Of a stretch of 64,000 nt of DNA, positions 31,745 to 64,000 are shown piece by piece. The position numbers were made by a program, and so were the translations under genes. Where the stretch lies: NCBI GenBank assembly GCA_001281695.1, contig LJIE01000001.1, positions 378,107-442,106 of the forward strand. Direction: 5' to 3'. The stretch is from a bacterium 336/3. Lineage in GTDB: Bacteria; Bacteroidota; Bacteroidia; Cytophagales; Thermonemataceae. The notes below the pieces were generated by a model, which ran no database searches, was not told the DNA's origin, and saw nothing but the letters and a program-made list of their open reading frames with translations. The stretch's first letter is position 1; the number at the start of each line of letters is the position of its first letter.

Positions 31745-32200
31745 ATGGAACAAGAAAAAGAATCACAAAAAACAGAACTACAACAAGTAGGAAGCCAATT
31801 TGTAACATTGGAGCAGATTGCGAAGATTGCCCAAAATCTTAATGATGCAGAGGTTATTGATGTTGATTTAGCATCAGACTATTGGTCACCAAAAACACTT
31901 CTTGAGTGTAAAAAACTCTTATTCCTTGTAATCCAAGATAGAGAGGTCAATGACATTAATGATCCTAGCAAAAGAGTTATGCTACCAACAGCTTTTTTTA
32001 TTGAGAATGTAGTTGGAGAGGGTGGTAAAACAACAGTAAAACGAGTATGTAATTCTTCTCGTAAATTACTGGGTCTTTTAGCTGATAACAATGTTCAACC
32101 AAATACTCCACTTCTTGTGACTTATCTTGGAAAGGTGAAAAATAAAACAAATCAGTTTGATTCTGAAACTTGGTCTGTAAAGCATCTCAAATTAGCTTAG
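31745..32200 (+). CDS. Phage recombination-operon protein, possibly ssDNA-binding
   Basis: The 151-residue protein opens the rightward recombination operon. After a Gln/Glu-rich start it reads ASDYWSPKTLLECKKLLFLVIQDREV..., with LPTAFFIENVVGEGGKTTVKRVCNSSRKLLGLL and an end TYLGKVKNKTNQFDSETWSVKHLKL. The alternation of beta strands and the aromatic YW and W residues would fit an OB-fold protein binding single-stranded DNA, and its place before an SMC-like ATPase and an exonuclease supports that. I do not recognise the exact family. Confidence 0.7.
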   Translation: MEQEKESQKTELQQVGSQFVTLEQIAKIAQNLNDAEVIDVDLASDYWSPKTLLECKKLLFLVIQDREVNDINDPSKRVMLPTAFFIENVVGEGGKTTVKRVCNSSRKLLGLLADNNVQPNTPLLVTYLGKVKNKTNQFDSETWSVKHLKLA

Positions 32201-32244
32201 TCTATCACCAGCCCTCAGAAATGAGGGCTAAACCTCTTTTTATT

Positions 32245-33450
32245 ATGCATGTAAAGAAAATCGAAATTAGAAACTTCAAGGCTGTTGAAGAAGCAAATAT
32301 AGACTTGAATGGTGCTCATATTATGATTATGGGCAAAAATGGTATAGGTAAGACTACCATTGGTAAATTGCTACAAGATTTACTCACAAAGAACCAACCT
32401 AGCAAACCTTTAAAAGAAGGTGAAAGACAAGGGTTTTGTAGAATTGAACTTTCTGATGGTTCAATTATCCATTATGCTTTTGATGAAGTAGGTCAAAAAC
32501 TAAACATAGTTTCCAATGATACTACTGATTTGTCAGCTGCCCAATTATTCAAAAAACTATCAGGTAAAGGTTTAGAATTCGATATTGATAAGTTTTTGGC
32601 AATGTCTCCCAAACCACGTAGAGATATGCTGATGCAAATATCAGGAATCGATCTGACAGATATAGATAAAAGATATGAGACTGCTTATAAAGCTCGTTCC
32701 GAAGCTAATACAAGGCTTAAAACCCAACAATCTCGAATAAAACCCTATGATGAGGAGTTGGTGAATAAAGAGAAAATAGAGATAGCCAAGGCATCACAAA
32801 AATATGCAGAAGCCATTACCCATAATCAAACTTATTCTCACAAGAAATCCAAATTAGAGACTATTCAAGTAGAATCTGATGAAGTTTCCAAAAAGATTAC
32901 AGAATTACAACAAAAGCTGGTAAATCTCAATATGGAAAGAATGGAGGTTTCAGAATGGCTCAATAACAATGTTGAAGTGAAAGAAAATGCTTTAGCAGAA
33001 ATGCAAAAGGAAATCTCTGAATCAGAAACTATTAATCAAAAAATAGATGAAGCAAGAAGGTTGGCTGAGGAATATAAGCTATGTGAACGATATGAAAAAG
33101 AATCTGATCAAGCACATGCTTTAGTTCTATCTATTGAGTCTGAAAAGGAATCTAAACTCAAGATGGCAAATCTACCTTCAGGTGTAAAATTTACTGATGA
33201 TGGATTAGAAATAGACGGTTTGCCATTTGAAAGTAATCAGATAGCAACTTCTCGAAAAATGATAGCAGCCTTAGAAATTGCTGAGAAAATGCTTGGTGAC
33301 GTAAGATACTTACATTTTGATGCTTCTGTTCTGGATAAAGATAATGCAATGAAGATTATAGAATGGGCAAATGAGAAAGATTTACAGCTTTGTTTGGAGC
33401 GAGCTATGTGGGATGGTGGTGAACTTACTTATGAAATCATAGAAAAGTAA
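32245..33450 (+). CDS. SMC/RecF-like ATPase
   Basis: Starting at the ATG at 32245 the protein has 401 residues. MHVKKIEIRNFKAVEEANIDLNG is the standard SMC/RecF N-terminal strand pair, followed by Walker A MGKNGIGKTT (about 30-39). A long coiled coil (about 145-310) separates it from the C-terminal part with MIAALEIAEKMLGDVRYLHFDAS, where the Walker B region lies. Compact proteins of this type sit beside exonucleases in phage recombination operons. The start overlaps nothing; the end overlaps the exonuclease start by one base. Confidence 0.83.
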   Translation: MHVKKIEIRNFKAVEEANIDLNGAHIMIMGKNGIGKTTIGKLLQDLLTKNQPSKPLKEGERQGFCRIELSDGSIIHYAFDEVGQKLNIVSNDTTDLSAAQLFKKLSGKGLEFDIDKFLAMSPKPRRDMLMQISGIDLTDIDKRYETAYKARSEANTRLKTQQSRIKPYDEELVNKEKIEIAKASQKYAEAITHNQTYSHKKSKLETIQVESDEVSKKITELQQKLVNLNMERMEVSEWLNNNVEVKENALAEMQKEISESETINQKIDEARRLAEEYKLCERYEKESDQAHALVLSIESEKESKLKMANLPSGVKFTDDGLEIDGLPFESNQIATSRKMIAALEIAEKMLGDVRYLHFDASVLDKDNAMKIIEWANEKDLQLCLERAMWDGGELTYEIIEK

Positions 33451-35639: not shown

Positions 35640-37622
35640 CTAATATTTTAAACCTAATTCTTTAAAGAAAGCACTATGTCTTTTTTCAACATCTTTTAAT
35701 AATTTATTATATGTTATTATTTCAACATAAGCATTAGTATCCTCAAAATAACAAAAAAGCCCTTCTTGCTCTGGAGTTTTTTTAAAATTATTATTTCTGC
35801 GTAGGGCTTTTTCTAATTTATCATCCAAATCACAAACAATATAGCAGTAAATTGGTGTGGTTTGTTTTATTTTAACAGGTCTTCCTTTATAATTTTGTAA
35901 AATATTATCACATATTTTGCTAATATAATCTTGTACTTGCTTCAATACATCATTATCTCGTCTGCCAGGTCTTTTAAATTCAAAAATTATAATTGATGAA
36001 TATTCATTATCTTCGCTGTAAACGAATGGTTTATCAAAAATTATTAAATCCGGCTTATCATCATCTTGAATTACACCTTCTGACATTTTTTTAAATTCCA
36101 TATCTGATGCCACATATGTATGAAAAACAAGTCTTTCATCTAACATCCACAAATTATGCTCATTATATGTAATATTATTGCTATCTTTTTTCATAGGAAA
36201 AATCAAGCTATGAATGTGTCTTTCAAGTTCGTAGCTACCTGATTCTTTTATTTCTAAGAGTTTTTCAAACATTTTAATTATGGTTTTTCTCCTAACTAAA
36301 TAGTTTGCTAATTTAGCATATGAAAAATCCTGTTCACTTTGTAAAACTTCTATTAGTGCATCTGTGTATTTTTCTGGGTTTTTAGGGTCTATCTCTTGAT
36401 GCAATAAAGTTTCAACTTTTATTTTTTGTTTTTTTTCATATTCATGATTGATTTGATGGAGAATCATATCCTTTTTATCACCATCCGCATCCACTGAAAG
36501 TTTATCTAAATGTTGGTCTAGTAGCTGTATCAAATGGCGATATTCTGGAGCTTTATTTTTTATAAATTCCTGATAATCATTCAATACATTTTCTTCTGTT
36601 TCTTTTAAATCATTTTCAAAATGTTTATATATTGATTTTTTTATTTCGTTATTTATTCTTTCCATTGAAATGGGTGATGCTAAATCTTCATCAATTTCTT
36701 TGATGGGTATAGGAAATTTAGTCCTTTCTGAATTTACATGAGTATCCAGATATTTAGATGTTATATATATGGAAAGATAATATTCTCCTTGTACTTCATC
36801 TGTTAGACTTCTAATAAAACTTGGCACAAAACTATTTACATTTTTAGTCAATGCTTCTCTATCATCAGCACAATAATGTACTTTGTGTGTATTACCTTTT
36901 TTATCATATTCTTTTATGTAGTATACGTCAAAATTATTATCTCCTATTTTAAAATTGTCCATCAAACCTTCAAAAGACATTTTAGTGTCAAAAAGACTTG
37001 TTAAATTTATTTGTTTTCCTTCATCTTCTATTATAATTAATGGGGCTTTCCTTGTGATAAAAAATATTAAACAATGTTCTAACAATTTGTCTGCAACTGT
37101 TTCTAAAGATGTTTTAGACCTATATTCTGGCAAATAGGCTCTGAGCTCAATCTTTGTTTCTATATTTTGAGGCAAGATACCATTCTCTGATAAAACTTTT
37201 ACTTCATTATCTAATGTGAAAGATATTTCTCTATGTTTTAATGTGTTTTTTTCAGAATATGTGCTATCTATATACATTTCTTTAAAAGCTTTTAAAACAA
37301 GAAATCTACCTATACCTTTACAACCATGTTTTAGTTTGTAATCTGTATAAGCTGTATTAAAAGATTTAAAGTTATCCTTATTAAAACCAATGCCATTATC
37401 TGTAACATTGAAACCTTCAATATAACCTAATTCTGGATTTTCCTCAAAAATAGCACCTTGTTGAACAATATTTCTTTTTATTTCCACCATTATTCTACCA
37501 TCAGGTCTTTTTGACTCTATTATAGAATGAATAGAATTAACTATTACCTCAAAAAGTGGTAATAAGTACTCACTTGGTCTTAGTTGTAAATCTGCTACTT
37601 TCTTTTTTAAATTGAACTCCAT
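35640..37622 (-). CDS. GHKL ATPase fused to PD-(D/E)XK nuclease-like domain
   Basis: From the ATG at 37622 (a TTG lies nine bases upstream) the protein has 660 residues. The N-terminal part is a Hsp90/MutL-like ATPase: LPLFEVIVNSIHSIIES (N box, with E and N), NVTDNGIGFNKDNF (G1) and KLKHGCKGIGRFLVLKAF (G2). A middle helical region with NDYQEFIKNKAPEYRHLIQLLDQ follows. The C-terminal part has KPDLIIFDKPF (Asp near 524) and SIIIFEFKRPGRRD (Glu-x-Lys near 547-549), a nuclease core. It pairs with the AbiC-like gene behind it. I know no named defence system that is exactly this pair. Confidence 0.82.
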   Translation of the reverse strand: MEFNLKKKVADLQLRPSEYLLPLFEVIVNSIHSIIESKRPDGRIMVEIKRNIVQQGAIFEENPELGYIEGFNVTDNGIGFNKDNFKSFNTAYTDYKLKHGCKGIGRFLVLKAFKEMYIDSTYSEKNTLKHREISFTLDNEVKVLSENGILPQNIETKIELRAYLPEYRSKTSLETVADKLLEHCLIFFITRKAPLIIIEDEGKQINLTSLFDTKMSFEGLMDNFKIGDNNFDVYYIKEYDKKGNTHKVHYCADDREALTKNVNSFVPSFIRSLTDEVQGEYYLSIYITSKYLDTHVNSERTKFPIPIKEIDEDLASPISMERINNEIKKSIYKHFENDLKETEENVLNDYQEFIKNKAPEYRHLIQLLDQHLDKLSVDADGDKKDMILHQINHEYEKKQKIKVETLLHQEIDPKNPEKYTDALIEVLQSEQDFSYAKLANYLVRRKTIIKMFEKLLEIKESGSYELERHIHSLIFPMKKDSNNITYNEHNLWMLDERLVFHTYVASDMEFKKMSEGVIQDDDKPDLIIFDKPFVYSEDNEYSSIIIFEFKRPGRRDNDVLKQVQDYISKICDNILQNYKGRPVKIKQTTPIYCYIVCDLDDKLEKALRRNNNFKKTPEQEGLFCYFEDTNAYVEIITYNKLLKDVEKRHSAFFKELGLKY

Positions 37623-37651
37623 AAAAGACAAAATTTTTCACAATTTAAGTA

Positions 37652-50479: not shown

Positions 50480-51373
50480 TTAAGCAGCTACAGAAACAAT
50501 TGATCCAAGCCCTTCTAATTTTTTCGGCATTGTGATTGCCCATAAAGAAAAACCGACCTTTGTTTTTCTGCCTTCAGCATCTTTTTTACCTTCTGTGTAG
50601 AACATTTCAGGGTCAGCAGATGCTTTGAAAGTACGTGGTGCATAAAATGCAGTAGATGCATAATTATCAGTTGCAGGATTAACAACAGAACCAAATGCTT
50701 TTTTCGCACCAGTAGCAGCTACATACCAAGGCACACTTTGATATTCATAAATATCAAAACCAAATAGTTTTGGAACTATGGTACCACTACCAATATTTTT
50801 GTATTGTTCTCGGAACGTTTCTGAAACATTTAATAATTGCTCAACATGTTGAGGACACAAGACCAAGATTCTGTCTTTTTTAGGAATCTTCAAATCATCA
50901 AATAATCGTTTCAATTTGATGATATCTTTAGGAGTAATTTGCTTCTTTGCATTAGTTTCCCCATCAGTTGTTCCTGTTGTTGGTACTACAGGAGTAGCAC
51001 CAGTATTACTAGAAGGACTCAAAGCATGTATAGCCAAATCGGCAGCCATTTCTTGAAGAACTTCTGTATGGCTCTGAGTGTACTCTTCGATTACGGGATA
51101 GTTTAGTCCATGTAAATATTTGATGGGAATCCCAGTGTTGGTGGTTTCCAAGTGTTTTAGAGAAATGGGAATATCCGTATCATTTACATCTACTGTTGGG
51201 ATGGGATAAGTGGTATTGTCCACCAACACTTCTGGGTCATTTCCCAAATCTGTAAAGTGAATTACCCTGTTTTTTACCCATTCATTCCGAGCAGGAATTC
51301 TTTCCATAAATCCAGTATCTTTTCTGAATTTTCTCAGAGCCTCGCCTGTCCAAACTTCTTCGTGTACAGCCAT
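50480..51373 (-). CDS. Major capsid protein
   Basis: A 297-residue protein in the expected place after protease/scaffold. Typical phrases are MAVHEEVWTGEALRKFRKDTGFMERIPARNEWV, NDTDIPISLKHLETTNTGIPI, DRILVLCPQHVEQLLNVSETFREQY and the end ADPEMFYTEGKKDAEGRKTKVGFSLWAITMPKK. The pattern is the HK97-fold capsid of Mu-like and Bacteroidota phages. It lacks a leading scaffold region, as the scaffold is fused to the protease. Confidence 0.87.
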   Translation of the reverse strand: MAVHEEVWTGEALRKFRKDTGFMERIPARNEWVKNRVIHFTDLGNDPEVLVDNTTYPIPTVDVNDTDIPISLKHLETTNTGIPIKYLHGLNYPVIEEYTQSHTEVLQEMAADLAIHALSPSSNTGATPVVPTTGTTDGETNAKKQITPKDIIKLKRLFDDLKIPKKDRILVLCPQHVEQLLNVSETFREQYKNIGSGTIVPKLFGFDIYEYQSVPWYVAATGAKKAFGSVVNPATDNYASTAFYAPRTFKASADPEMFYTEGKKDAEGRKTKVGFSLWAITMPKKLEGLGSIVSVAA

Positions 51374-51436: not shown

Positions 51437-52600
51437 TTATTCCTCTCTCTTGGAGGGTAAAAAACCGTATTCTGCCTTAAATAAACTATTGTAAAGAGTC
51501 GGATCTTCATCCTTGATTCTTTCTAGTTCGTCAGGATCTTTTTGCAAATAGTCTTTAAATGACCATTTAGACTTTTCATCAACAGTTGTTGTTCGTGTGG
51601 AAAGATTTGGGTGTCCAGACATATTCTCTATAGTGCTTTTTGCTAAATCAAAATCTGCAAGAGCCAGTTTTATAAACTGATCTTTTTGAGTGGCTCTGAT
51701 TTTGCCTTTAGCAATTGCATCCTCTACTAAATTATTTGCACTAGCCTTTTTTGTTTCTTCATTTTGCTTTCTTAAATCTTCAATTTCCACTTTGAGAGTT
51801 TGAATTTCATCTCTATAAGCATCATTTTGAAGAGCTTTTGCTTTGAGAGTTTGAATTTCACCAAGAGTTTCTTTTTCTGAAGAATCAAGGTTTAACCCAA
51901 GTGCATTTTTTACGTTGTCAAAAACTTTGTTAGGATCCATTTTATTTTCAGGTTTTTTGTTATCTATGATAGGCTCTTCACCAAGAAGAGAATTAAAATA
52001 CGAGTACAATTGAAGTGTATTTTGAACACCTTCTGGCTGTGTTGTTGTACGTTTGTTGGGATAAGAAACTATTTCATCAATTAAACCTTTGGATAGTGAC
52101 TCATCAGCAGATAACCAAGTTTCTACGCTCATCATATCATCAATCGCAGATGCATTCTGAGATGTTCTTGATTCAAAAATCTTTACTAAACTATCTTTTA
52201 AAATGCCAAGAACTTCCTGTTCTTTTTTGTTTGGAGAAGGGTTTCCATTATGAGGGTTATGAAGCATTAATTTGGCATAATCAGCCATAAATACTTTTTT
52301 ACCTGCCATCAAAATTACTCCTGCCATACTTGCAGCGATTCCATCATTATAGGTATGTACAGGTACTTTAGATGTTACAATACTTGAAAATATTGCATAG
52401 CCTTCTAAAACGCTTCCTCCAGGGGAGTTGATTCTTACATTAATTTTTTTGAAGAAACTTGATAGATAATCTAATTCCTGAGCAAAAACATCTCCTTGTA
52501 TTCCTTTTTCACCTCCAATAGGTTTATAGATACGCATAGTTGCTGTATCTCCAGATGCATTTTGAAAATATAGAAGTTTATTTAAATCAGGTTGGTTCAT
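51437..52600 (-). CDS. ClpP-like prohead protease fused to scaffold
   Basis: The 387 residues start with a ClpP-type S14 protease (about 1-185): FFKKINVRINSPGGSVLEGYAIF, YNDGIAASMAGVILMAG (catalytic Ser), KLMLHNPHNG (catalytic His) and a later Asp. From about 215 a scaffold-like coiled coil follows (ETLGEIQTLKAKALQNDAYRDEIQTLKVEIEDLRKQNEETKKASANN). Such fusions process and assemble the procapsid. It is the first gene after a short region with rightward genes, so a leftward promoter must lie in 52601-52700. Confidence 0.88.
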   Translation of the reverse strand: MNQPDLNKLLYFQNASGDTATMRIYKPIGGEKGIQGDVFAQELDYLSSFFKKINVRINSPGGSVLEGYAIFSSIVTSKVPVHTYNDGIAASMAGVILMAGKKVFMADYAKLMLHNPHNGNPSPNKKEQEVLGILKDSLVKIFESRTSQNASAIDDMMSVETWLSADESLSKGLIDEIVSYPNKRTTTQPEGVQNTLQLYSYFNSLLGEEPIIDNKKPENKMDPNKVFDNVKNALGLNLDSSEKETLGEIQTLKAKALQNDAYRDEIQTLKVEIEDLRKQNEETKKASANNLVEDAIAKGKIRATQKDQFIKLALADFDLAKSTIENMSGHPNLSTRTTTVDEKSKWSFKDYLQKDPDELERIKDEDPTLYNSLFKAEYGFLPSKREE

Positions 52601-53245: not shown

Positions 53246-53729
53246 GTTTATCCACAAACTCTATCCCATATTGTAAACTAAATTCTTGTAGTATTGTATT
53301 TATTTTTGCAGAATTATCAGTGAATTTACATTCATAATCAATTGCAACCACATAAATATTTCCCCATGCTAAAGGAGTCCTCATTTTGATACGAGATAGT
53401 TTACCAAAGCTATCACTATAAAGATGCAAAGCTTTGTTGATAACTTCTGCCAATAGAAAAACACCCTCTTCTCCAATAACTCCATCAGCAGCATCTTCTT
53501 TTTGATAACTTTCAAATCCAATCCAAATGGTAATAATACATTTTGCTTGCTGACTACCTCTGGCTGCATTGGTATAATCAATATCTGGAAAAGAAATAAA
53601 GGTGGCAGGGTATAAAAAACTTGTTTCATGTTCTTCTGTTTCAAATTGGTTATTGTATAAACCAATGGTTTTCAGACCTAAAACTTTATCTTTGAGCCTG
53701 TTTTTGATGGAAGCATATATTTCGTACAT
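53232..53729 (-). CDS. Tail terminator/head-tail joining protein
   Basis: The 165 residues include MYEIYASIKNRLKDKVLGLKTIGLYNNQFETEEHETSFLYPATFISFPDIDY when read along and RMRTPLAWGNIYVVAIDYECKFTD near the end. The pattern resembles tail terminator proteins that cap the tail before joining. It lies between the gpG-like gene and the capsid genes. Confidence 0.72.
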   Translation of the reverse strand: MYEIYASIKNRLKDKVLGLKTIGLYNNQFETEEHETSFLYPATFISFPDIDYTNAARGSQQAKCIITIWIGFESYQKEDAADGVIGEEGVFLLAEVINKALHLYSDSFGKLSRIKMRTPLAWGNIYVVAIDYECKFTDNSAKINTILQEFSLQYGIEFVDKLNDV

Positions 53730-54202
53730 TATCTAAAGATATTTTTGAATGTGTTGTAGAATTCCTTTTCTAACTTCTTTTTAGTGTTAGAATCCACTCC
53801 CATAAAACGCCTTTGAGGAATTTTTAACTTTTGTTTTTTAGTCAATGCAAGCCTTTTCCAATATGGGTTCTGAGTACTTTGATATTTAGCCCAGAAGAAT
53901 TTCTTCATTTTGGCTGTGACAGAAATTTCTCCTCCGTCATTATGTATTTTAGCCTGAGGCATATCTGTTGATATGACTATTCTTCTCCAACTTGCTTCTG
54001 CCAACCGAATGGAACGCCTTAGCTTTCCAGATTTTACCAGCAAACTACGACCGTCATTTAACTGCTTTGCTTTCCAAGGTCGTCCATCAAAAGATTGCTT
54101 CTTAAAATTATCATTGATTGAATCCAAAACAATAAACCCCATTCTTTGAGGGATTTTCTTTACTGATTGGAATTTCGCTATGATATTTTTAAATGGATTC
54201 AT
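53729..54202 (-). CDS. Virion morphogenesis protein (Mu gpG-like)
   Basis: A 157-residue basic protein: NDNFKKQSFDGRPWKAKQLNDGRSLLVKSGKLRRSIRLAEAS, AKIHNDGGEISVTAKMKKFFWAKY and PQRRFMGVD. This is the Phage_tail_S / gpG pattern for a tail-completion protein. It overlaps the portal polyprotein gene by 14 bases. Confidence 0.85.
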   Translation of the reverse strand: MNPFKNIIAKFQSVKKIPQRMGFIVLDSINDNFKKQSFDGRPWKAKQLNDGRSLLVKSGKLRRSIRLAEASWRRIVISTDMPQAKIHNDGGEISVTAKMKKFFWAKYQSTQNPYWKRLALTKKQKLKIPQRRFMGVDSNTKKKLEKEFYNTFKNIFR

Positions 54203-56675
54203 TTACAAACTTTTTAATTCTTGCTAAACCTTCATTGGAAATATTCTCAAAATATGGATGTTGCTTTGGGAAAACTATACCATCAAGAGCCACGTTACTA
54301 GCAAAAATTCCCTCAGGTTGCTGTAAATTGTTTTTTGGTAATACTAAAGGTGTATCCTCATTCATAGGAACAACAGTACTTCTACAAGGTCCCCAATGAT
54401 TAGGGGGATAATTTATTGTCCAGAATGAATCTGATGCGGGTAGAATTATGCCATCCCTTTGCTGACATAGGGGAGTAGTTCTATCATCACCTACAGCTGA
54501 ATATTTCAATAAGACATTTGGATTTTTACCTACATACTGATTCCAAATTGAAATCATTTGTGCGGAAGCCATGGCGTGTTCATACTCTGCTTTTAAGTAA
54601 TTCAGATTATATCTTTCATTTACTTTTTTTGCTTCTTTCATGAACCTTTCAAAACTACGAGCTCTTCCACTTTCATCAACAAGTTTTGAACTCAATTCAG
54701 ATAATTGCTGATAAGTTTTTACTCCAGAGAACCAATAGACATTCTCTTTTAGAGCATTGATTTTTTCATAATCTGTTAATGTGGAAATAGATTGCTCTAA
54801 ATATTTAGAAGTTAGTTTAGCAATAGTATTGTCAAATAAGAGTGAGCCTTTTGAAAAAACCTTTGTTGCAATGTTTTCATAAGCTTTTGTAAACCTTTTA
54901 AATAATTTTTTGATTTCATCATCAATTGTATTCTGATAATTGTAAAGATTTGATATTTTGTTTTCAAGCGTTTTATCAAGTAGAGGAATAGCAATTTTAT
55001 TGCCATCTGACTTTGAATATACAGCCGTATCTAGTGAAAGTTTTAAGAATTCTTTCATCAAAAAACCATACTCAATTACATATTTTTGTGCTGTTCCTTT
55101 CTGTAAATAAGCAATAGTGGCATGTGGACTGTAGTGCAACCTTGGACTTGTATGTGGCAATTCCTTAAACCTTAAATTTAATTCATTCAAAAGGGGATTG
55201 CTAACTGAAAACTTAAGAACATCATAATCTTCTGCTTCAAAAAAACTGATATCTAATAAGTTGACATCTATCTTGGGAATTTCTCTCATGATGCTTAAAA
55301 CATCATTATCATTTATGTCTGAATGTAATCCATATAAAAGAGTGACATGAGGCTCTTTTTCAATGCCTGCAATATTTTCTTCAAGATTGATATATAAATC
55401 TTCAGCTTTGATATGTTGAGTTAGAAATGTCCATATTGCTATTGATGCTTCGGATACATTCAGCATTACACATCCAAAATCATACTTGTTTTTAATATTT
55501 GAGACATCAATAGGTTTTGTTGCAGGTAAGGGATTACTATCGTTTTTCTTTGTGACTTTTAATCCAAAATTTTCATTAAAAAACTCTTCAGGAATTTCAT
55601 AATGCTCTAATATTACTTTAAGCAATTCTGGTGATATACTTTTTCTGTTTTCCTCTGTTTTTTGATTTCGGAGCCTATTATAAACAAATCTTAATCCTTT
55701 GAATGGATAACCAAATCTAATCAATCTTGGTATTAGCAATTCATTTACAATGGTTTGTAAGTCTTCCATATATGCCTCAACACGCTCTTCGCTGGGAGTC
55801 TTATTGATAGCATCTTTATTGATATAAGTTTGCTGACTGCCTCCTTTGGCTTCATCATCAGCATTTTTTGTATGACCAAGAACAAGTTTTGATAGTTCGG
55901 AGTTTACACGTTCAGTAAGGTTTTCAAATGTTTTAGATGAATCTGCACCACTTTGAGGTTGTAAATAATCAACTTCATCATCCTTATCAAGAATACCTAA
56001 GCCCTCAACGCCTACTTTAAGCATTTGCTTTTCTATTTCTTCTTTTTCGATAGCATCTTTATCTGTTTTGACGATGATAGTGGGTAATCCAAAACGTTCA
56101 TTGAAACTTGCATGGCTACCCATAGAAAAACGTTTGTAGATAACCATTGGAGAGGCTTTTAATAACATACCTAATCCATTTTCAATAAATATGTAAAAAT
56201 CTGAATAGGCTGGATTATCGAATCTTTCTCCTTTAGTATCAAATGTATTGATAAGGACTTCTTTTTTTTCAGGAATTATATTTCTTCTTTCAACAAGTGC
56301 AATTTTTTCAACTTGCCCATCTTTGTCAAACTCTTTCAATTCTATTAGAGAATAACCATAATACTTAGCAGACAAAACATGATGGATGAATTCTCCAAAC
56401 CATCGTTTTTGAAGAAGTTTTACTTGTTCTGATGGTTTATCTTTTTCATCTAATAGCAAAAATGTTTCACCAAGTATTTTAAACTCTAGATTTTCAATGA
56501 TACCAGATAAATGGTTATCCAACATAACCATATCATACACATCCATCAACTTTTGTCTGCGAGGAAATTCAATGCTCTCTGCTGTTTGCCAAGCAGCTAA
56601 AAACTCTTGAATACCTTTTCTGCCTCTGTCAAAACGTAGAAGTTTTGTTCTATTTGAAAAAAAAGTTTGACTCAT
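54189..56675 (-). CDS. Portal - 2H phosphoesterase - MuF polyprotein
   Basis: The 828 residues contain three units. Residues about 1-375 are a DUF935-like portal (FLAAWQTAESIEFPRRQKLMDVYDMVMLDNHLSGIIENLEFKI as the core, then NERFGLPTIIVKTDK and KLVLGHTKNADDEAKGGS). Residues about 395-565 hold a 2H phosphoesterase-like domain with two HxT motifs: EPHVTLLYGLH (His443, Thr445) and YSPHATIAYL (His518, Thr520), 75 residues apart. Residues about 620-828 carry the MuF/SPP1 gp7 domain with RTTPLCQQRDG and NYPPNHWGPCRSTVV. The gene is intact, in normal place after terminase and gp36-like genes. A 2H enzyme inside a virion protein could be delivered with the DNA. Confidence 0.85.
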   Translation of the reverse strand: MSQTFFSNRTKLLRFDRGRKGIQEFLAAWQTAESIEFPRRQKLMDVYDMVMLDNHLSGIIENLEFKILGETFLLLDEKDKPSEQVKLLQKRWFGEFIHHVLSAKYYGYSLIELKEFDKDGQVEKIALVERRNIIPEKKEVLINTFDTKGERFDNPAYSDFYIFIENGLGMLLKASPMVIYKRFSMGSHASFNERFGLPTIIVKTDKDAIEKEEIEKQMLKVGVEGLGILDKDDEVDYLQPQSGADSSKTFENLTERVNSELSKLVLGHTKNADDEAKGGSQQTYINKDAINKTPSEERVEAYMEDLQTIVNELLIPRLIRFGYPFKGLRFVYNRLRNQKTEENRKSISPELLKVILEHYEIPEEFFNENFGLKVTKKNDSNPLPATKPIDVSNIKNKYDFGCVMLNVSEASIAIWTFLTQHIKAEDLYINLEENIAGIEKEPHVTLLYGLHSDINDNDVLSIMREIPKIDVNLLDISFFEAEDYDVLKFSVSNPLLNELNLRFKELPHTSPRLHYSPHATIAYLQKGTAQKYVIEYGFLMKEFLKLSLDTAVYSKSDGNKIAIPLLDKTLENKISNLYNYQNTIDDEIKKLFKRFTKAYENIATKVFSKGSLLFDNTIAKLTSKYLEQSISTLTDYEKINALKENVYWFSGVKTYQQLSELSSKLVDESGRARSFERFMKEAKKVNERYNLNYLKAEYEHAMASAQMISIWNQYVGKNPNVLLKYSAVGDDRTTPLCQQRDGIILPASDSFWTINYPPNHWGPCRSTVVPMNEDTPLVLPKNNLQQPEGIFASNVALDGIVFPKQHPYFENISNEGLARIKKFVNESI

Positions 56676-56678
56676 ATT

Positions 56679-57095
56679 TTAAAAAAACATATCGTGTGGA
56701 GGTTGTTTTGAGGTGAATCGAAAACTAGAGGGTTTCGTTTCATTATCTTCAGTCATGTATTTAGGTAAATCAGGTGTAAGATCACCATCTCTTACTTCTT
56801 TAAGCCATTTAATGCCTTTGTTGTATTGTGTCAATCGTGTTTCTTGTACTTGTTTAGGTGATATCCTTAACGAGACATAATACAAAACAAGATCAATCAT
56901 TATCCTTACAATATCTCTATGTCTATTTTCCCCCACAGCAGAAAAAATAGCTGTTGTATTGAATTTTACTCTGAGATAAGTTTCCATCTCAACCTTTGCA
57001 TCTTTTTCAATTTCTTCTACAGTTGTTCCATCCAATTGCTGGTTGAGAGCTTCTATACGAATTGCTTTAGGATAGTCAGTTTCTACTAAAAACAT
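56679..57095 (-). CDS. DUF1320-like head-tail connector (Mu gp36-like)
   Basis: The 138-residue protein has MFLVETDYPKAIRIEALNQQLDGTTVEEIEKDAKVEMETYLRVKF and IVRIMIDLVLYYVSLRISPKQV, the helical pattern of DUF1320/gp36 proteins that bridge head and tail. It lies between terminase and portal genes with a two- to three-base gap. Confidence 0.82.
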   Translation of the reverse strand: MFLVETDYPKAIRIEALNQQLDGTTVEEIEKDAKVEMETYLRVKFNTTAIFSAVGENRHRDIVRIMIDLVLYYVSLRISPKQVQETRLTQYNKGIKWLKEVRDGDLTPDLPKYMTEDNETKPSSFRFTSKQPPHDMFF

Positions 57096-57097
57096 AA

Positions 57098-58519
57098 TTA
57101 AAATATATTTGAGGATGTAGGTCTATGAACTGCGGTTGGTTTGGATGTTCCTCGTTTGAAGAATTTTTTGAAATCTTCTTTGAAGCATTCAGTAAGGAAA
57201 TAATCATCTGCATCAGAGCAGTGTCCTAGACTTTCATAACTGACTTTTGTTTTTGGGTCTGTAACACGTTTTTTATTTTTTGTACCATCTGGATTTTCTT
57301 TGATATTTTGAAAGTCAAGAATACTCTTTTGACATCTTTTATCTATGAGAATACTTATACCTGCATATTCGTATGCAAATATCTCATTGATAAATTCTCC
57401 TCTCATAGCAACACCTGGTGCAAAAGATGCTACTCTTTTCTTAGGTCTCCAAATTGAAAGTTCATCCATAATGATTTGGAAATCATTTTTATTTTCTCTT
57501 GTATCCTGATGATGCCCAGAAGGGTCTCCATACACATAACAACCACCAATATGATCTTTGAAATTTTTTAAAATAGCTCTACAAAGCTTTGCAGTAGTGT
57601 TATTTGGCGATTCCAAACAAAATTCAGCTATTTTTTCACTTTTTTTGCCATTTACTTGCCAAACTCCACATGTTATATACGGTACTACGTTAAAATCAAA
57701 AGTTAAGTGTAAAGGTTTAGTATAATCATAGGAACCACTTAAATCTGCTATATGAAGCCCACTGTCAAAACATTTATAGAATTCTCCTCCTGTTCTTTCT
57801 TCAGCATCCCAATTTCCATGTAATAATCTTTGTTTATCATATTCAGAAGTCATTGATTCAAGACTTTGCTTATATAATTTGACAAATGCTTTATCTGGAT
57901 TATCTTTAAGAGATGCAAAAATATACCTCTGATTAGGTTTTAATTGAATAGGATTGTCATTTCTATCTTTTACATATCTATACTTTACCCAATGCGGACC
58001 AGGATTGCCTGTTAAAAAAACTTTAGGAGCAATTCCATATTCTTGAAGTTTATACCTGACCCTTGTTTTTACAATCTCAAAAGCCTTTTCAGTAATTTCA
58101 GGAGCTTCATCAATAAAAGCATCTGTATACTCCATAGATCCTAATGTTTGAAAATCTGGGTCACTTGGTTGATATTTCAGTTCTTTCAAAATAGTTCTAC
58201 TGCCATTGCACCATTCAATAATATGCATTACACTATTATATTTGAAGTGTAGTCCCTCTATCAAACCAAAACTCTTTGCTACATCTTTAAGAGTAATAAG
58301 TGTACTTTCAGTAATAGCTTTAAGTTCATTTCTTCCAATTAAACCTCTACTATTTGGATATCGGAGTCTTCTGTAAATATGCCATGCACATCCAAGCATA
58401 CTTTTTCCACCACCAGCAGCTCCGCCATAAAAAATCTCATCAGAATCTAAATCTTCAAGATGTTGCCATGCTTGATACTGCTTTTGAGAAGGTTTAAATT
58501 TTATATCAATCGTTTTCAT
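57098..58519 (-). CDS. Terminase large subunit
   Basis: The 473-residue packaging motor has Walker A FYGGAAGGGKSML (33-40), Walker B with YTDAFIDEAPEIT (about 130-142), motif C-like FLTGNPGPHW, and a C-terminal RNase H-like nuclease with LHLTFDFNVVPYIT, VYGDPSGHHQDTREN and GHCSDADDYFL (acidic residues for metal binding). It cuts and pumps DNA into the head. The start overlaps the small terminase gene by 14 bases. Confidence 0.93.
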   Translation of the reverse strand: MKTIDIKFKPSQKQYQAWQHLEDLDSDEIFYGGAAGGGKSMLGCAWHIYRRLRYPNSRGLIGRNELKAITESTLITLKDVAKSFGLIEGLHFKYNSVMHIIEWCNGSRTILKELKYQPSDPDFQTLGSMEYTDAFIDEAPEITEKAFEIVKTRVRYKLQEYGIAPKVFLTGNPGPHWVKYRYVKDRNDNPIQLKPNQRYIFASLKDNPDKAFVKLYKQSLESMTSEYDKQRLLHGNWDAEERTGGEFYKCFDSGLHIADLSGSYDYTKPLHLTFDFNVVPYITCGVWQVNGKKSEKIAEFCLESPNNTTAKLCRAILKNFKDHIGGCYVYGDPSGHHQDTRENKNDFQIIMDELSIWRPKKRVASFAPGVAMRGEFINEIFAYEYAGISILIDKRCQKSILDFQNIKENPDGTKNKKRVTDPKTKVSYESLGHCSDADDYFLTECFKEDFKKFFKRGTSKPTAVHRPTSSNIF

Positions 58520-59237: not shown

Positions 59238-60605
59238 TTACAATAAATCCTCTATTTTGAGGTCACCATTTATATGCTCAAATTCAAATTCTATCCCATG
59301 CTTTTGACAATAGCTATGGTATCTAAGAATAATCAGTTGGGCATAATGTTCTTCGAACTCTACACCTCTACAAATTCGATTTGTTTTTTCTGCAGCGATG
59401 AGAGTAGTGCCAGAACCAAGAAAACAGTCAATTACAATATCTCCTTCATCAGAAGCATCAAGAAGAACATCAGCGACCATTTGCAAAGGTTTAGGAGTAG
59501 GATGATTGGCTAATTGCCCAATTCCTCCTGTTTCTTTTCTGTCAGGATTTGAAAAGTCGTTTGTTGAATGGTAATCCCAAACATTAGATCGATATCTGTC
59601 TTTTAAATCTAGATTGGACTTATGTTTAAATTGTCCATTCTTGAAAATGATACAAAGTTCATGTTTTGACCGATAAAAAGACCCATTGGCTGCAACAGTT
59701 TTATTCCATACGCATAACTGTTTGGGCTGTATAGATTTGTATGTATTTTCCCGCCCAGCAGCTTGGCATACATGCCATATGTGTCTAAAATCCATACAGT
59801 GATAGTGTATAGAGCCATCTACTGAATGCTTAACAAGATTTTGCATATAAGAACTAAGAAAATCTACAAATTCATGGTCTGACATTTCACCAATAGCCAT
59901 AGCAAAGTCTTTATGTTGCACTTTGCCTTTTCCTCCAAATTCTTTATAAGGTAAATTATAAGGAGGGTCTGTGAAAACTATTTGAGCTTTTGCTTCCTGC
60001 ATCAATGCTTCAAATGTTTCTGCTTTTGTAGAATCACCCACAATAAAGATATGTTTTCCTAATCTAAAAATATCACCTTTTTTGACTAGAATCTCAGTAT
60101 TAATTTCTTCTGGTGGGAAATCATCTTCTATGGACTCTTTCACAGAGTACAAATCAAATTTTTGCTCAAAACGGTCAAAGCTAAAATCAGGAATATCAAT
60201 AGCTGTTTTTAGGTGTAGGAGGTCAAGATTGAAATTAGTTACAAAATCATTCAACCCATCTTGAGTAAGTTTTGCATATTGACTTGTATAAACTAAAACC
60301 AACTTAGCAGCCTCTTGCTTATTTTCACAATCAATAAAGCAACCCTCTAAAAGTTCAGGAATAATAACTCCCTCAGCTTCCATTTCCTCCAAAGTATCTT
60401 GTCTATGATGACCATCAAGTATCCAAATGGTTTTATCAGAATCTTCCCAAACCATGAAGGGCATCACAAAGAAAAATTCTTTTAGTGATTGTTTTAACTT
60501 ATTAGCTTTTTCACCAGAAAACTCTTTGAAGTTTTCATTCTGAAACCATTTAGCATCTTTCCATCTAAATTTCTCAGTTTTAATGATTCTTGAGAAGATT
60601 TCCAT
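59238..60605 (-). CDS. ParB-like domain fused to beta-class DNA N-methyltransferase
   Basis: The 455 residues start with a ParB/sulfiredoxin-like domain (about 1-115; LKQSLKEFFFVMPFMVWEDSDKTIWILDGHHRQDTL contains the GHHRxDT motif), followed by an N6-adenine or N4-cytosine methyltransferase with motif IV VFTDPPYNLPYKEF (near 212) before motif I DCFLGSGTTLIAAE (near 395), i.e. the beta order. It is the first gene of the packaging operon and the first gene inside the right end. Such fusions are frequent in phages; the ParB-like part may read DNA, and the enzyme protects phage DNA or marks packaging sites. Confidence 0.9.
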   Translation of the reverse strand: MEIFSRIIKTEKFRWKDAKWFQNENFKEFSGEKANKLKQSLKEFFFVMPFMVWEDSDKTIWILDGHHRQDTLEEMEAEGVIIPELLEGCFIDCENKQEAAKLVLVYTSQYAKLTQDGLNDFVTNFNLDLLHLKTAIDIPDFSFDRFEQKFDLYSVKESIEDDFPPEEINTEILVKKGDIFRLGKHIFIVGDSTKAETFEALMQEAKAQIVFTDPPYNLPYKEFGGKGKVQHKDFAMAIGEMSDHEFVDFLSSYMQNLVKHSVDGSIHYHCMDFRHIWHVCQAAGRENTYKSIQPKQLCVWNKTVAANGSFYRSKHELCIIFKNGQFKHKSNLDLKDRYRSNVWDYHSTNDFSNPDRKETGGIGQLANHPTPKPLQMVADVLLDASDEGDIVIDCFLGSGTTLIAAEKTNRICRGVEFEEHYAQLIILRYHSYCQKHGIEFEFEHINGDLKIEDLL

Positions 60606-60798: not shown

Positions 60799-63150
60799 CT
60801 AATAAATAAAGTGCTTTAAAGAATGTAATTTTTGAGGAATACTCTCCAACTGATTTTCTGAAATATCTAAATAGTGTAGATTTTTCAATTTGTCAAATTC
60901 TTTCGGCAACTCTCTTAATCTATTTTTGAAAAGGTATAACTCTTGTAAATTCTCTAAATTACAAATCTCGACTGGCAATTCTCTTAATTTGTTTTCATTT
61001 AAAGCAAGATAACATAATGCCTTTAGATTTCCGATACTCTTAGGTATTGAAGTTAAATGATTTTCTTCTAAATCTAAGTGTTTAAGATGTATCAAATTGC
61101 CGATTTCGTTTGGTAGAATAAGCGGAACACGATAATGTTTATATTGAGAAGAGTTATAAATCTCTAATTTTTCGAGTTGAGTACACAAACCTATTTCAGC
61201 AGGTAACTCTTTAGCAGTAATTCGTAAAAACCTTAATTTAGGAAGTTTGGAAAGCTTTTTGAGGGTGTCTTTTAAATCTAAATGAAAATTTCCTTCTAAA
61301 TATAAAGTTTCTAAATTTTTAAGTTTATCAAATGTCTTGGGAAGATGTTCCAAATTACATTTACTAATTTGTAGTTCTTTGAGGTTTTGTAGCTCTCCAA
61401 AATTTTCAGGAAGAAGCAATTTTTTTGCTTCTATTCTGATGATTTCAAGTTTAGAAAGTTTTGTAAACTCTTCGGATAGCTTCAAATGGCTTGAAAATGC
61501 CAACCTTAAAAAAGATAAATTGCTAATGTTTGAAATAGAATCTGGAACAACTTGTTTTCTTCTATAATCCGAGTCTATGACCAATTCTTCTAAATAAGGA
61601 ACTTCTTCAATTTTTGATGGAAATTTTGTAGCAATACTTATAGAATGTACAGTTTTCATTTTCGGAAGTTTACCTATTATCTCAAAAATATTCTGTAATT
61701 GAATATTGGGAACATATCTTAATTCTATTTCTTCTAATTTCTGAAGTTTTATGAGAGTTTTTGGAAGACGTTTGATTTTAGTATTCTCAAGAGATAAATA
61801 CCTCAAATTGCTTAGTTCTCCAATACTTTTGGGCAAAGTTTTGAAAGGATTTTGACCCAATGATAAAACTTCTAAGTTTTTTAATTTTGAAATCCAATCG
61901 GGAACTTCTTTTAAGCCACACTCATTCAGATGAAGGCTTTTTAGATGAGTAAGATATTGTAAATAATGACTGATTTCTACGCTTTGTTCTCCATAAAGTT
62001 TTCGAATACTTAAATCTTCTATATTTTTTAAGAAAATAATTTCTCTTGGAATGATAGCTGTTTCCAAAGACAATGATTTGATATGAGGTAACTCTCCTAT
62101 AATGGGTAGTGTTTGGCTCAAATTAAGCTTTTCACAATGCCCCAAAGATAAATATGTCAAGTTTTTTAGCTTTGAAAAAGACTTTGGCAAGCGTCTGAGA
62201 GAGGAGTTCCAATATAAACTAACCTTTTTGAGAGCCTGTAATTGACCAATGTCTTTGGGTAGTTTTTGGAGGCTTTGATAAGACAACTCTAATACTTCCA
62301 AATTTTTTAAATCACAAAATTCTTTTGGGAGCTGTTTCAAACTCCCTCCGTTCATCTTAAAAGTGTTTAGATTTTGTAAATTGCCTATTTGAGTTGGTAG
62401 CTCTTGAATTCGATAATTTCGAGATAAAGTTAAACTTTCTAAGTTTGAACATTTAAAAATTTCTTCAAAATGGATTTCTTCTCGCCATGTTTGAGATTCT
62501 CCACTTAAATCAAGGTTTATTACTTTAGCATATTGCTTATCTTGAATGAGTTTGAGATTAGACACAGATAATTCCATGTCTAAATTGTAAGAAAGCCAAT
62601 CTAAAAAGGTATAACAAATTATTTTTTTACCTTTTTGGGTATAAAATGGATGATACATATCTTCTACATGCCAAACAAAACCTTTTGATTCTCCTGTTAC
62701 TACCAAAGCTGTATGGCTGCTACCCCAACCCTCATAATTAAGTATTAAACAGCCTTGTAAATCACCTTTTTGACTGGAATCCAGTATGTTTCTTACCTTT
62801 TCAGCAGGATAAAAACGATAAATATTGTCTTCTATAATCTCTATACCCATTATTTGTGTGAATGGAAAAGGTAAATGAATGGGTAAAGTAGTTGTGTCTG
62901 TATAATGGTATCGAACAGACTCTTCTAACGAATTAATATGTCTGTGATATTCTTCTTGATTCCCATTTCCAATGTGTAATAAAAAAGCTTTATACTCTTC
63001 AGGGAGTTGGATTTGGTACTTTTTCTCAAAATCTATAATTTCTTTTTCAGAAAGTGTGGGATTGAGTGTGTATGGCTTTTTGCCTTCTTCTTTTCTTTGT
63101 GTATTGATAAGTGTTATTTTTTCAAGAATAGATTGTATCTTGTTTTCCAT
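60799..63150 (-). CDS. SUKH (SMI1/KNR4-like) domain protein with leucine-rich repeats
   Basis: From the ATG at 63150 the protein has 783 residues. Residues about 25-190 form a SUKH domain: LSEKEIIDFEKKYQIQLPEEYKAFLLHIGNGN and GCLILNYEGWGSSHTALVVTGES. From about 215 to the end there are some 24 leucine-rich repeats of the LxxLPxxIGxLxxLxxL type. SUKH proteins often neutralise toxins; LRR parts bind proteins. It is chromosomal, outside attR, and has a long bacterial LRR array like many Cytophagales proteins. Confidence 0.88.
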   Translation of the reverse strand: MENKIQSILEKITLINTQRKEEGKKPYTLNPTLSEKEIIDFEKKYQIQLPEEYKAFLLHIGNGNQEEYHRHINSLEESVRYHYTDTTTLPIHLPFPFTQIMGIEIIEDNIYRFYPAEKVRNILDSSQKGDLQGCLILNYEGWGSSHTALVVTGESKGFVWHVEDMYHPFYTQKGKKIICYTFLDWLSYNLDMELSVSNLKLIQDKQYAKVINLDLSGESQTWREEIHFEEIFKCSNLESLTLSRNYRIQELPTQIGNLQNLNTFKMNGGSLKQLPKEFCDLKNLEVLELSYQSLQKLPKDIGQLQALKKVSLYWNSSLRRLPKSFSKLKNLTYLSLGHCEKLNLSQTLPIIGELPHIKSLSLETAIIPREIIFLKNIEDLSIRKLYGEQSVEISHYLQYLTHLKSLHLNECGLKEVPDWISKLKNLEVLSLGQNPFKTLPKSIGELSNLRYLSLENTKIKRLPKTLIKLQKLEEIELRYVPNIQLQNIFEIIGKLPKMKTVHSISIATKFPSKIEEVPYLEELVIDSDYRRKQVVPDSISNISNLSFLRLAFSSHLKLSEEFTKLSKLEIIRIEAKKLLLPENFGELQNLKELQISKCNLEHLPKTFDKLKNLETLYLEGNFHLDLKDTLKKLSKLPKLRFLRITAKELPAEIGLCTQLEKLEIYNSSQYKHYRVPLILPNEIGNLIHLKHLDLEENHLTSIPKSIGNLKALCYLALNENKLRELPVEICNLENLQELYLFKNRLRELPKEFDKLKNLHYLDISENQLESIPQKLHSLKHFIY

Positions 63151-63202
63151 AGAAAGTGGATTTACTGTCTTCAAGATACGATTTTATTTAATAGCAACAA
63201 AG

Positions 63203-63227
63203 AAGGGCAAATTGTAAATTTGCCCTT
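63203..63227 (-). terminator. Terminator between hydrolase and SUKH-LRR genes
   Basis: AAGGGCAAATT (63203-63213) and AATTTGCCCTT (63217-63227) form an 11-bp stem just beyond the stop of the gene at 63248. The following T-run is short on both strands. Confidence 0.7.
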
Positions 63228-63247
63228 TTGGATATAACTTTCTTTTA

Positions 63248-64000
63248 CTACAATTTAGGATTTTTGCCTTTTAGCACTTCTATTATATGATTTACCACCA
63301 TCTGAGAAGAATGATAATACCAATGATTTAAGACCTGTGTACCCACATCAGAGCCTTTATCATCTTTGGTTTTAGATACATCTACATCAAAAACATCTGT
63401 AAGAGAGGTGTTTACATATTTCCTGCCATATTTACCTAAGCGATTGCTGAAATTTTTGGTATATTTTGAAATACTCAGAACATGGTCTTTGTCATGGAAA
63501 TAGATATGAACTCTTCTGCCAAAATCTATAAGTTTATAAAAAGCCTCTTGAGGCTCAAAAATATCATATTCTACATCAGCAGCCATGATGAGTATTTCCT
63601 CAAACAATTCGGGAATGCCTGCTTGCAAGTGTTCTAGTTCCAGAATAGTGTGTTTGAGAACTCTGTTGCCCATAGAATGAGCCATGAGGTGTATTTTTTT
63701 GTTACAGGCTGGGTTTCTTTCTTGTACAAGTGTTTTTCTCAAAAATTCTGTAACTTTTAAAATGCCTCTTGCCAATGCCTCTCCTGAACGAATGGCATCT
63801 TTTTTATCATCATGGTAATGCAATGGAAGAGCAGGCGACCTACCAGGCCAAGTAAATATAATAATATGCCCCACAGGTGAGTTGGGGTTTTCTACGTACT
63901 TTTTATGAAGGTTATCAATAGTTTTTCTCAAACTTTCTAAATCTGTATTAAAACCATGAATAAAAAACAAAGTATCAGATTTTTCTACACCTGAAGAAGT
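63248..64000 (-). CDS. Alpha/beta hydrolase (DUF900-like), N-terminal part outside window
   Basis: The reading frame runs to the window edge, so the start lies outside. Visible are FFIHGFNTDLESL (oxyanion strand), FTWPGRSPALPLHYHDDKKDAIRSGEALARGI and KIHLMAHSMGNRVLKHTILEL, the serine nucleophile motif of DUF900 hydrolases, and a later ILIMAADVEYDIF and HDKDHVLSISKYT with Asp and His. The substrate is unknown. It belongs to the chromosome right of the prophage. Confidence 0.85.
   Translation of the reverse strand, partial: TSSGVEKSDTLFFIHGFNTDLESLRKTIDNLHKKYVENPNSPVGHIIIFTWPGRSPALPLHYHDDKKDAIRSGEALARGILKVTEFLRKTLVQERNPACNKKIHLMAHSMGNRVLKHTILELEHLQAGIPELFEEILIMAADVEYDIFEPQEAFYKLIDFGRRVHIYFHDKDHVLSISKYTKNFSNRLGKYGRKYVNTSLTDVFDVDVSKTKDDKGSDVGTQVLNHWYYHSSQMVVNHIIEVLKGKNPKL

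Follow-up and report, generated by a model that had tools for sequence, protein, structure and literature searches.

The portal–MuF protein of a Mu-like Bacteroidota prophage carries a confirmed 2H phosphoesterase domain between its two head-protein domains, and this 2H domain is an added module. The domain may hydrolyse a nucleotide signal of host defence, a reading that is supported by the recruitment of related enzymes to the portals of other phages and that has to be weighed against roles in RNA processing.

A portal, a 2H and a MuF domain in one polypeptide

The gene lies in the window, by which we mean the whole 64,000-nucleotide stretch of DNA that was analysed. It starts with an ATG and contains no internal stop or frameshift, so that its earlier description as one continuous gene holds. 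Its surroundings are those of a Mu-like head module, in the order terminase, Gp36-like adaptor, portal–2H–MuF protein, gpG-like protein, ClpP-type protease and major head protein:

57098–58519, minus strand: terminase large subunit (PF04466, E 1.1e-09)
56679–57095, minus strand: Mu Gp36-like head–tail adaptor (PF07030, E 1.4e-10)
54189–56675, minus strand: portal–2H–MuF gene, 828 aa in a single frame
55512–56675, minus strand: Mu-type portal domain, residues 1–388 (PF06074; L146 portal; Foldseek)
54975–55511, minus strand: 2H phosphoesterase domain, residues ~389–567, in the portal–MuF linker (PF13563, AF2, Foldseek/VIA)
55341–55349, minus strand: first HxT motif, H443-V-T445, invariant in 62 family rows
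55116–55124, minus strand: second HxT motif, H518-A-T520, aligned with Acb1 H113/T115
54189–54974, minus strand: MuF minor head protein domain, residues 568–828 (PF04233; TIGR01641)
53729–54202, minus strand: gpG-like virion morphogenesis/neck protein (PF05069, E 2.3e-09)
51437–52600, minus strand: ClpP-type/Mu-I head maturation protease (PF00574, E 5.8e-28; PF10123, E 7.2e-08)
50480–51373, minus strand: major head protein (phrog_267, E 3.7e-25)

The preliminary description had placed the 2H motifs between a DUF935-like portal and a MuF domain, and profile searches recover both flanks. Residues 44–372 match Portal_Mu (PF06074, i.e. DUF935) over the complete profile (positions 1–336 of 336; E 6.5e-54, 183.9 bits), and the best Foldseek matches of the portal part are the JBD30 and Mu portals. 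Residues 676–768 match Phage_Mu_F (PF04233, E 4.6e-09, 37.5 bits for a cut-off of 29.6), and the MuF part scores 39.6 bits with TIGR01641, whose cut-off is 39.65. Together, the Pfam matches and the AF2 model described below reveal the trait of polyvalent virion proteins, namely a virion structural domain and a conflict-type enzyme domain in one chain.

Other genes of the window were noted along the way. Adjoining the terminase genes, positions 59238–60605 encode a DNA methyltransferase (PF01555) whose N-terminus is extended by a region that looks ParB-like. A leucine-rich repeat/SUKH protein and a DUF900 alpha/beta hydrolase are encoded upstream of the head genes (60799–63970), probably outside the prophage. 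The segment 31745–37631 contains an AAA_15 ATPase gene (32170–33450, plus strand) with two genes after it and, beyond this group, a gene whose 663-aa product weakly matches HATPase (35640–37631, minus strand); the AAA_15/HATPase genes are possible defence cargo.

The linker domain is a 2H phosphoesterase

The protein has only two HxT motifs, at residues 443–445 and 518–520, with a spacing of 75; in the 2H superfamily, the two HxT/S motifs are about 70–80 residues apart. This spacing is weak evidence by itself, because 1.4% of shuffled versions of the 828-aa protein contain an HxT pair 60–90 residues apart. That the motifs occur by chance is ruled out by three other results: (i) PF13563 (2_5_RNA_ligase2), the best Pfam family for the domain, matches residues 441–537 of the whole protein with an E of 2.3e-05 (24.9 bits), its score being 26.7 bits with the isolated domain, slightly below the curated cut-off of 27, and 29–46 bits, above this cut-off, with relatives examined singly; (ii) a tblastn comparison with phage 2H proteins gives a best E of 1e-28, with 99% of the domain aligned; (iii) the AF2 model of the domain, based on an alignment with 61 viral relatives (62 rows), adopts a 2H fold (pLDDT 90.1, pTM 0.84). 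The first HxT motif, which was no selection criterion in the contig scan used to gather these relatives, is invariant in 62 of the 62 rows; the second is invariant by construction, since the scan demanded it. The original assignment of the two motifs to a 2H domain is thus borne out by exact motifs, homology and fold, and neither of the findings that would have spoken against it, a different predicted fold or the loss of the two histidines in relatives, turned up. The enzyme is apparently intact and is predicted to be catalytically competent. Note that in an AF2 model of the full-length protein the portal is good and the 2H region poor, because the alignment used contained no 2H rows; the arrangement of the domains was not drawn from that model.

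The closest relatives by sequence are the 2H proteins of the Maribacter phages Molly and Colly and of huge phages (phrog_755), which align over the full domain with 34–40% identity (tblastn E 5e-19 to 1e-28); Colly_1 is the best BFVD match. These proteins are free-standing, unlike the window domain, which is joined to head proteins. In the PDB, Foldseek ranks first an anti-CBASS Acb1-type phosphodiesterase from Burkholderia phage BCSR5 (5e-7); Usb1 and a cyclic phosphodiesterase (CPDase) of Arabidopsis come next, and LigT is also found among the Foldseek/VIA structural matches. The VIA-align Z scores of the Arabidopsis enzyme (14.6), the Acb1 structures (13.4–13.7) and Usb1 (13.5) are nearly tied; the modelled 2H fold by itself picks no substrate. 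TIGR02258, the profile of the LigT/ThpR RNA 2',3'-cyclic phosphodiesterases, does not match the portal–2H–MuF protein at E 0.1 and gives 28–29 bits with relatives, for a cut-off of 65.7.

One match, L023, was discarded as spurious. A huge-phage protein (L026:2956–4275) has its 2H domain fused to what reads as a DEDD-type 3'-5' exonuclease-like region. The window genome (G000) also encodes, outside the window (C1 ~1029944), a chromosomal 988-aa protein with a weak 2H match (L133:163–3129), in which, as read from the sequence, this match accompanies an endonuclease/exonuclease/phosphatase-like region and a poly(A)-polymerase-like nucleotidyltransferase; its composition is that of an apparent RNA-processing polyprotein.

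The 2H domain was added to a portal–MuF scaffold

Among the sequences searched, L146 (IMG/VR 3300044998_000941, 35 kb) comes nearest. Its genes are arranged as in the window, and its portal is 72% identical and its MuF domain ~50% identical to those of the window protein. Its portal–MuF fusion is a single protein of 657 aa that lacks the 2H domain: the window protein is ~170 residues longer, exactly in the portal–MuF linker. A search for 2H elsewhere in the L146 phage gave no match in its 35-kb record, which may be incomplete. No close relative of the whole gene other than L146 was found in the viral and genome contigs searched.

A survey of DUF935–2H–MuF fusions had been suggested in the preliminary description. 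Portal–MuF fusions are frequent among the 91 other portal/MuF loci surveyed, and none of the 91 has a 2H domain in the portal/MuF slot. A genome search with an L146/window profile revealed four loci (L247–L250) in which a 2H domain directly follows the portal; they come from the genomes G779 and G825, both of the same taxonomic order. These portal–2H proteins of 620–637 aa retain both HxT motifs, have no MuF domain in the chain and share the same neighbour genes. Their dN/dS values (0.09–0.18 for the 2H part, 0.04–0.08 for the portal part) indicate that the 2H parts are under purifying selection. Because a portal–MuF protein exists without 2H and portal–2H proteins exist without MuF, the 2H domain is an added module. 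The portals of the window, L146 and L247–L250 form one clade with a support of 100/100, and in the 2H tree a single clade uniting the window 2H with the portal–2H group has an AU p of 0.30. Judged from these trees, two independent gains of 2H, or one gain followed by a loss in L146, would be equally short histories.

Other Bacteroidota portal–MuF fusions carry different domains: an ADP-ribosyltransferase (L244:726–3551, E 6e-9), a weakly matching PBECR2-like RNase domain (L005:91–2541, E 8e-4) and a Hint/intein domain (L231:1–2703). The portal–MuF polypeptide is thus a scaffold that acquires effector domains.

Relationship to Acb1

The anti-CBASS phosphodiesterase Acb1 (PMC9117128) is the precedent that the preliminary description had invoked. 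Acb1 is characterised by cleavage of 3'3'-cGAMP and cAAA and by protection of the phage against CBASS. Profile comparisons link the family of the window domain to it: 59 of the 62 members match the Acb1 profile PF23474 at E 0.1 or better, hhalign of the family against an Acb1 alignment gives 97% with an E of 8e-11, and in PDB profile searches Acb1 chains are the best two matches of one profile and the best match of the other. In the profile alignment, the catalytic HxT/HxT tetrad is in register with H44/T46 and H113/T115 of T4 Acb1. The window domain itself gives no match to PF23474 even at E 10. In the sequence alignment, on which these residue assignments solely depend, the base-stacking positions Y12, F107 and W74 of Acb1 correspond to Cys, Arg and Phe, respectively, and the C-terminal region of Acb1 containing E141 (adenine contact) and W147 (base stacking) does not align with the window domain. 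We make no claim of Acb1 membership and, on this comparison, file the domain as a 2H phosphoesterase, because it has no PF23474 match and appears not to keep Y12 and F107. The fold and the aligned tetrad are in line with an Acb1-type enzyme; the lack of a PF23474 match and the presence of sister domains on tRNA nucleotidyltransferases (see below) speak against it. The window domain may nevertheless work like Acb1.

A parallel in other phages makes the anti-CBASS analogy stronger than the sequence alone had made it. Pseudomonas phage psageK9, the weakest among the matches listed in a tblastn search with T4 Acb1, encodes a portal in which PF06381 (Phage_portal_3, E 5e-89) is followed by an Acb1 domain (PF23474, E 2e-43). 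This type of fusion is covered to at least 80% in 32 phage records, for phages of Pseudomonas, Rhizobium, Sinorhizobium, Aminobacter, Synechococcus and Pseudanabaena; among the phages are psageK9/phiPSA1, the Rhizobium RHph group, Aminobacter phage Erebus and Pseudanabaena phage Pam3. Three loci with PF06381 and PF23474 are listed here:

L261:3322–5121: psageK9 portal–Acb1
L262:2272–4134: Pam3 portal–Acb1
L263:1001–2860: Erebus portal–Acb1

The Acb1 domain is recognised with an E of 6e-29 in Pam3 and 2e-22 in Erebus, and the portal–Acb1 proteins keep the catalytic histidines, the second residue after each being Thr or Ser. For Pam3, the 621-aa chain sequence of the portal PDB entry 8HDS includes the Acb1 domain. 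This entry is absent from the Foldseek rows listed for the 2H domain and for the portal part, an absence that has no bearing on whether the Acb1 part is ordered in the structure. Most of the 32 records are annotated only as portal, head or hypothetical protein. As in the window protein, the enzyme follows the portal directly on its C-terminal side with its catalytic motifs kept; the differences are that the portal belongs to another family, that the enzyme is Acb1 proper (E 2e-22 to 2e-43) and that the chain has no MuF domain. As the Mu-type portal–2H and PF06381–Acb1 proteins show, portals of two families have thus been joined to an enzyme, each to one from a different branch of the 2H superfamily.

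Predicted function of the portal-bound 2H domain

The substrate reading that we favour, with the scales standing level, is a defence nucleotide signal; it is preferred because of the Acb1 precedent, the portal–Acb1 fusions and what Iyer et al. (2017) predicted. According to this proposal, the 2H phosphoesterase that the portal subunit of this Mu-like prophage has gained within its portal–MuF linker would carry out a metal-free HxT/HxT reaction on a cyclic di- or trinucleotide, or on a 2'-5' or 2',3'-cyclic species, and removal of the signal would blunt CBASS-type immunity. We found no CD-NTase (SMODS) in the window's own genome; CD-NTase genes are present in the related genome G825 and in G865. 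This distribution is neither for nor against an anti-CBASS role.

The main competitor, less probable in our judgement yet deserving serious attention, is an RNA-end enzyme that would open 2',3'-cyclic phosphates or trim RNA ends during RNA/tRNA repair against tRNA-cutting defences and be placed on the portal for dosage or delivery. Sister 2H domains are indeed fused to tRNA nucleotidyltransferase/PolyA_pol, in large proteins, in 6 of 80 viral loci (L060, L078, L081, L086, L087 and L102, L086 being assigned via its near-copy L087), and in 9 of the 56 loci scanned a standalone member has a cluster of at least five tRNA genes upstream of it. (The fusion in L060 also includes a polyvalent-type ADP-ribosyltransferase and that in L081 a GNAT domain; the nine loci, L038, L040, L045, L049, L050, L053, L057, L058 and L061, have clusters of 5–12 tRNA genes within a few kb.) The best matches of the modelled structure include the plant CPDase and Usb1, 2_5_RNA_ligase2 is the best Pfam family, and an RNA repair role has been assigned to jumbo phage 2H enzymes (PMC7824862). 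However, a tRNA neighbourhood does not discriminate between the two readings, T4 acb1 being near trna-region genes and the Aeh1 copy beside a tRNA. Furthermore, we noticed no RNA ligase in those window genes that were examined, Iyer et al. (2017; PMC5512222) remark that they never observed an association of polyvalent-protein 2H domains with RNA ligases, and repair would be expected from a free enzyme rather than from a portal-bound one.

It is improbable that the domain is a Usb1-type RNase with host or CRISPR RNA as its target upon entry. Such a role has been proposed for polyvalent 2H and PBECR domains on MuF or portal proteins (PMC5512222), and agrees with Usb1 as a top match of the model (VIA Z 13.5) and with the weak PBECR2-like match (E 8e-4) of the related fusion L005, but the closest profiles are those of ligase-like 2H proteins and Acb1, not that of Usb1. 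Finally, a captured 2H that merely aids the portal or DNA packaging, its activity dispensable, would be in line with the intact 2H-less portal–MuF gene of L146 and with AKAP18, a catalytically idle 2H-like domain, but is very unlikely in view of the retention of both HxT motifs in all relatives examined (the second by construction) and in L247–L250, of the dN/dS of 0.09–0.18 in the portal–2H group and of the fact that other portals have in parallel acquired catalytic Acb1.

Location, delivery and timing

Portals form 12-mer rings whose C-terminal part is directed towards the head interior, and they remain at the head vertex. Because of this geometry, a particle would contain approximately twelve 2H copies, held inside the head beside the DNA exit. 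Since the portal stays at the vertex, an unprocessed fusion would stay in the particle; entry of the enzyme into the cell together with the DNA, as initially proposed, would not be straightforward and would need its release from the portal. The head protease encoded at 51437–52600 is a candidate that could in principle cut the fusion, and action at infection would be conceivable if proteolysis freed the 2H–MuF part. Alternatively, the site of action could be the producing cell, at the time when heads are put together, and no release would then be called for. Action in the producing cell fits equally well as action at infection. In keeping with the proposal, the MuF protein SPP1 gp7 is incorporated into the head through its binding to the portal (PMC6316719).

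In its broadest form, our proposal is that unrelated phages independently joined signal-destroying 2H nucleases to the portal ring, each particle being preloaded at its DNA exit with an anti-immune enzyme so as to act before phage gene expression, and that the 2H family used in the Bacteroidota version is another one than Acb1 and has a signal spectrum of its own. We advance this only tentatively and consider it rather unlikely as a whole.

Comparison with known systems

The 2H domain on a portal or MuF protein belongs to a known theme, that of virion proteins carrying enzymes, and is not unprecedented. Fusions of 2H domains to MuF or portal were already reported by Iyer et al. (2017; PMC5512222), who suggested that these domains are RNases or hydrolases of defence nucleotides; like the window protein, their polyvalent proteins combine 2H with portal or MuF in one polypeptide, but their account does not appear to describe the portal–2H–MuF order or Bacteroidota Mu-like prophages. 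MuF polymorphic toxins of temperate phages (PMC5576092) likewise consist of a MuF protein with an added enzyme domain. They differ in that the toxin is at the MuF C-terminus, whereas the window enzyme is N-terminal of MuF, fused to a portal and without an obvious toxin. The present analysis adds the Bacteroidota Mu-portal/2H/MuF protein itself, its 2H-less nearest relative, the portal–2H sister group and the convergence with portal–Acb1.

The comparison with T4 Acb1 (57B) is of another kind, as the 2H fold and the HxT/HxT tetrad are common to both, but T4 Acb1 is a free protein whose pocket residues, as aligned, appear to differ, and the window domain is fused and lies outside PF23474. The two would also differ in timing. 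T4-type anti-CBASS enzymes are made after infection starts, whereas a nuclease that forms part of the portal would be on board the particle from the outset, or else its synthesis would coincide exactly with that of the late structural proteins. With 2H or Acb1 now paired with two portal families, one of them represented by PDB entry 8HDS, virion-borne anti-immunity becomes testable in laboratory phages.
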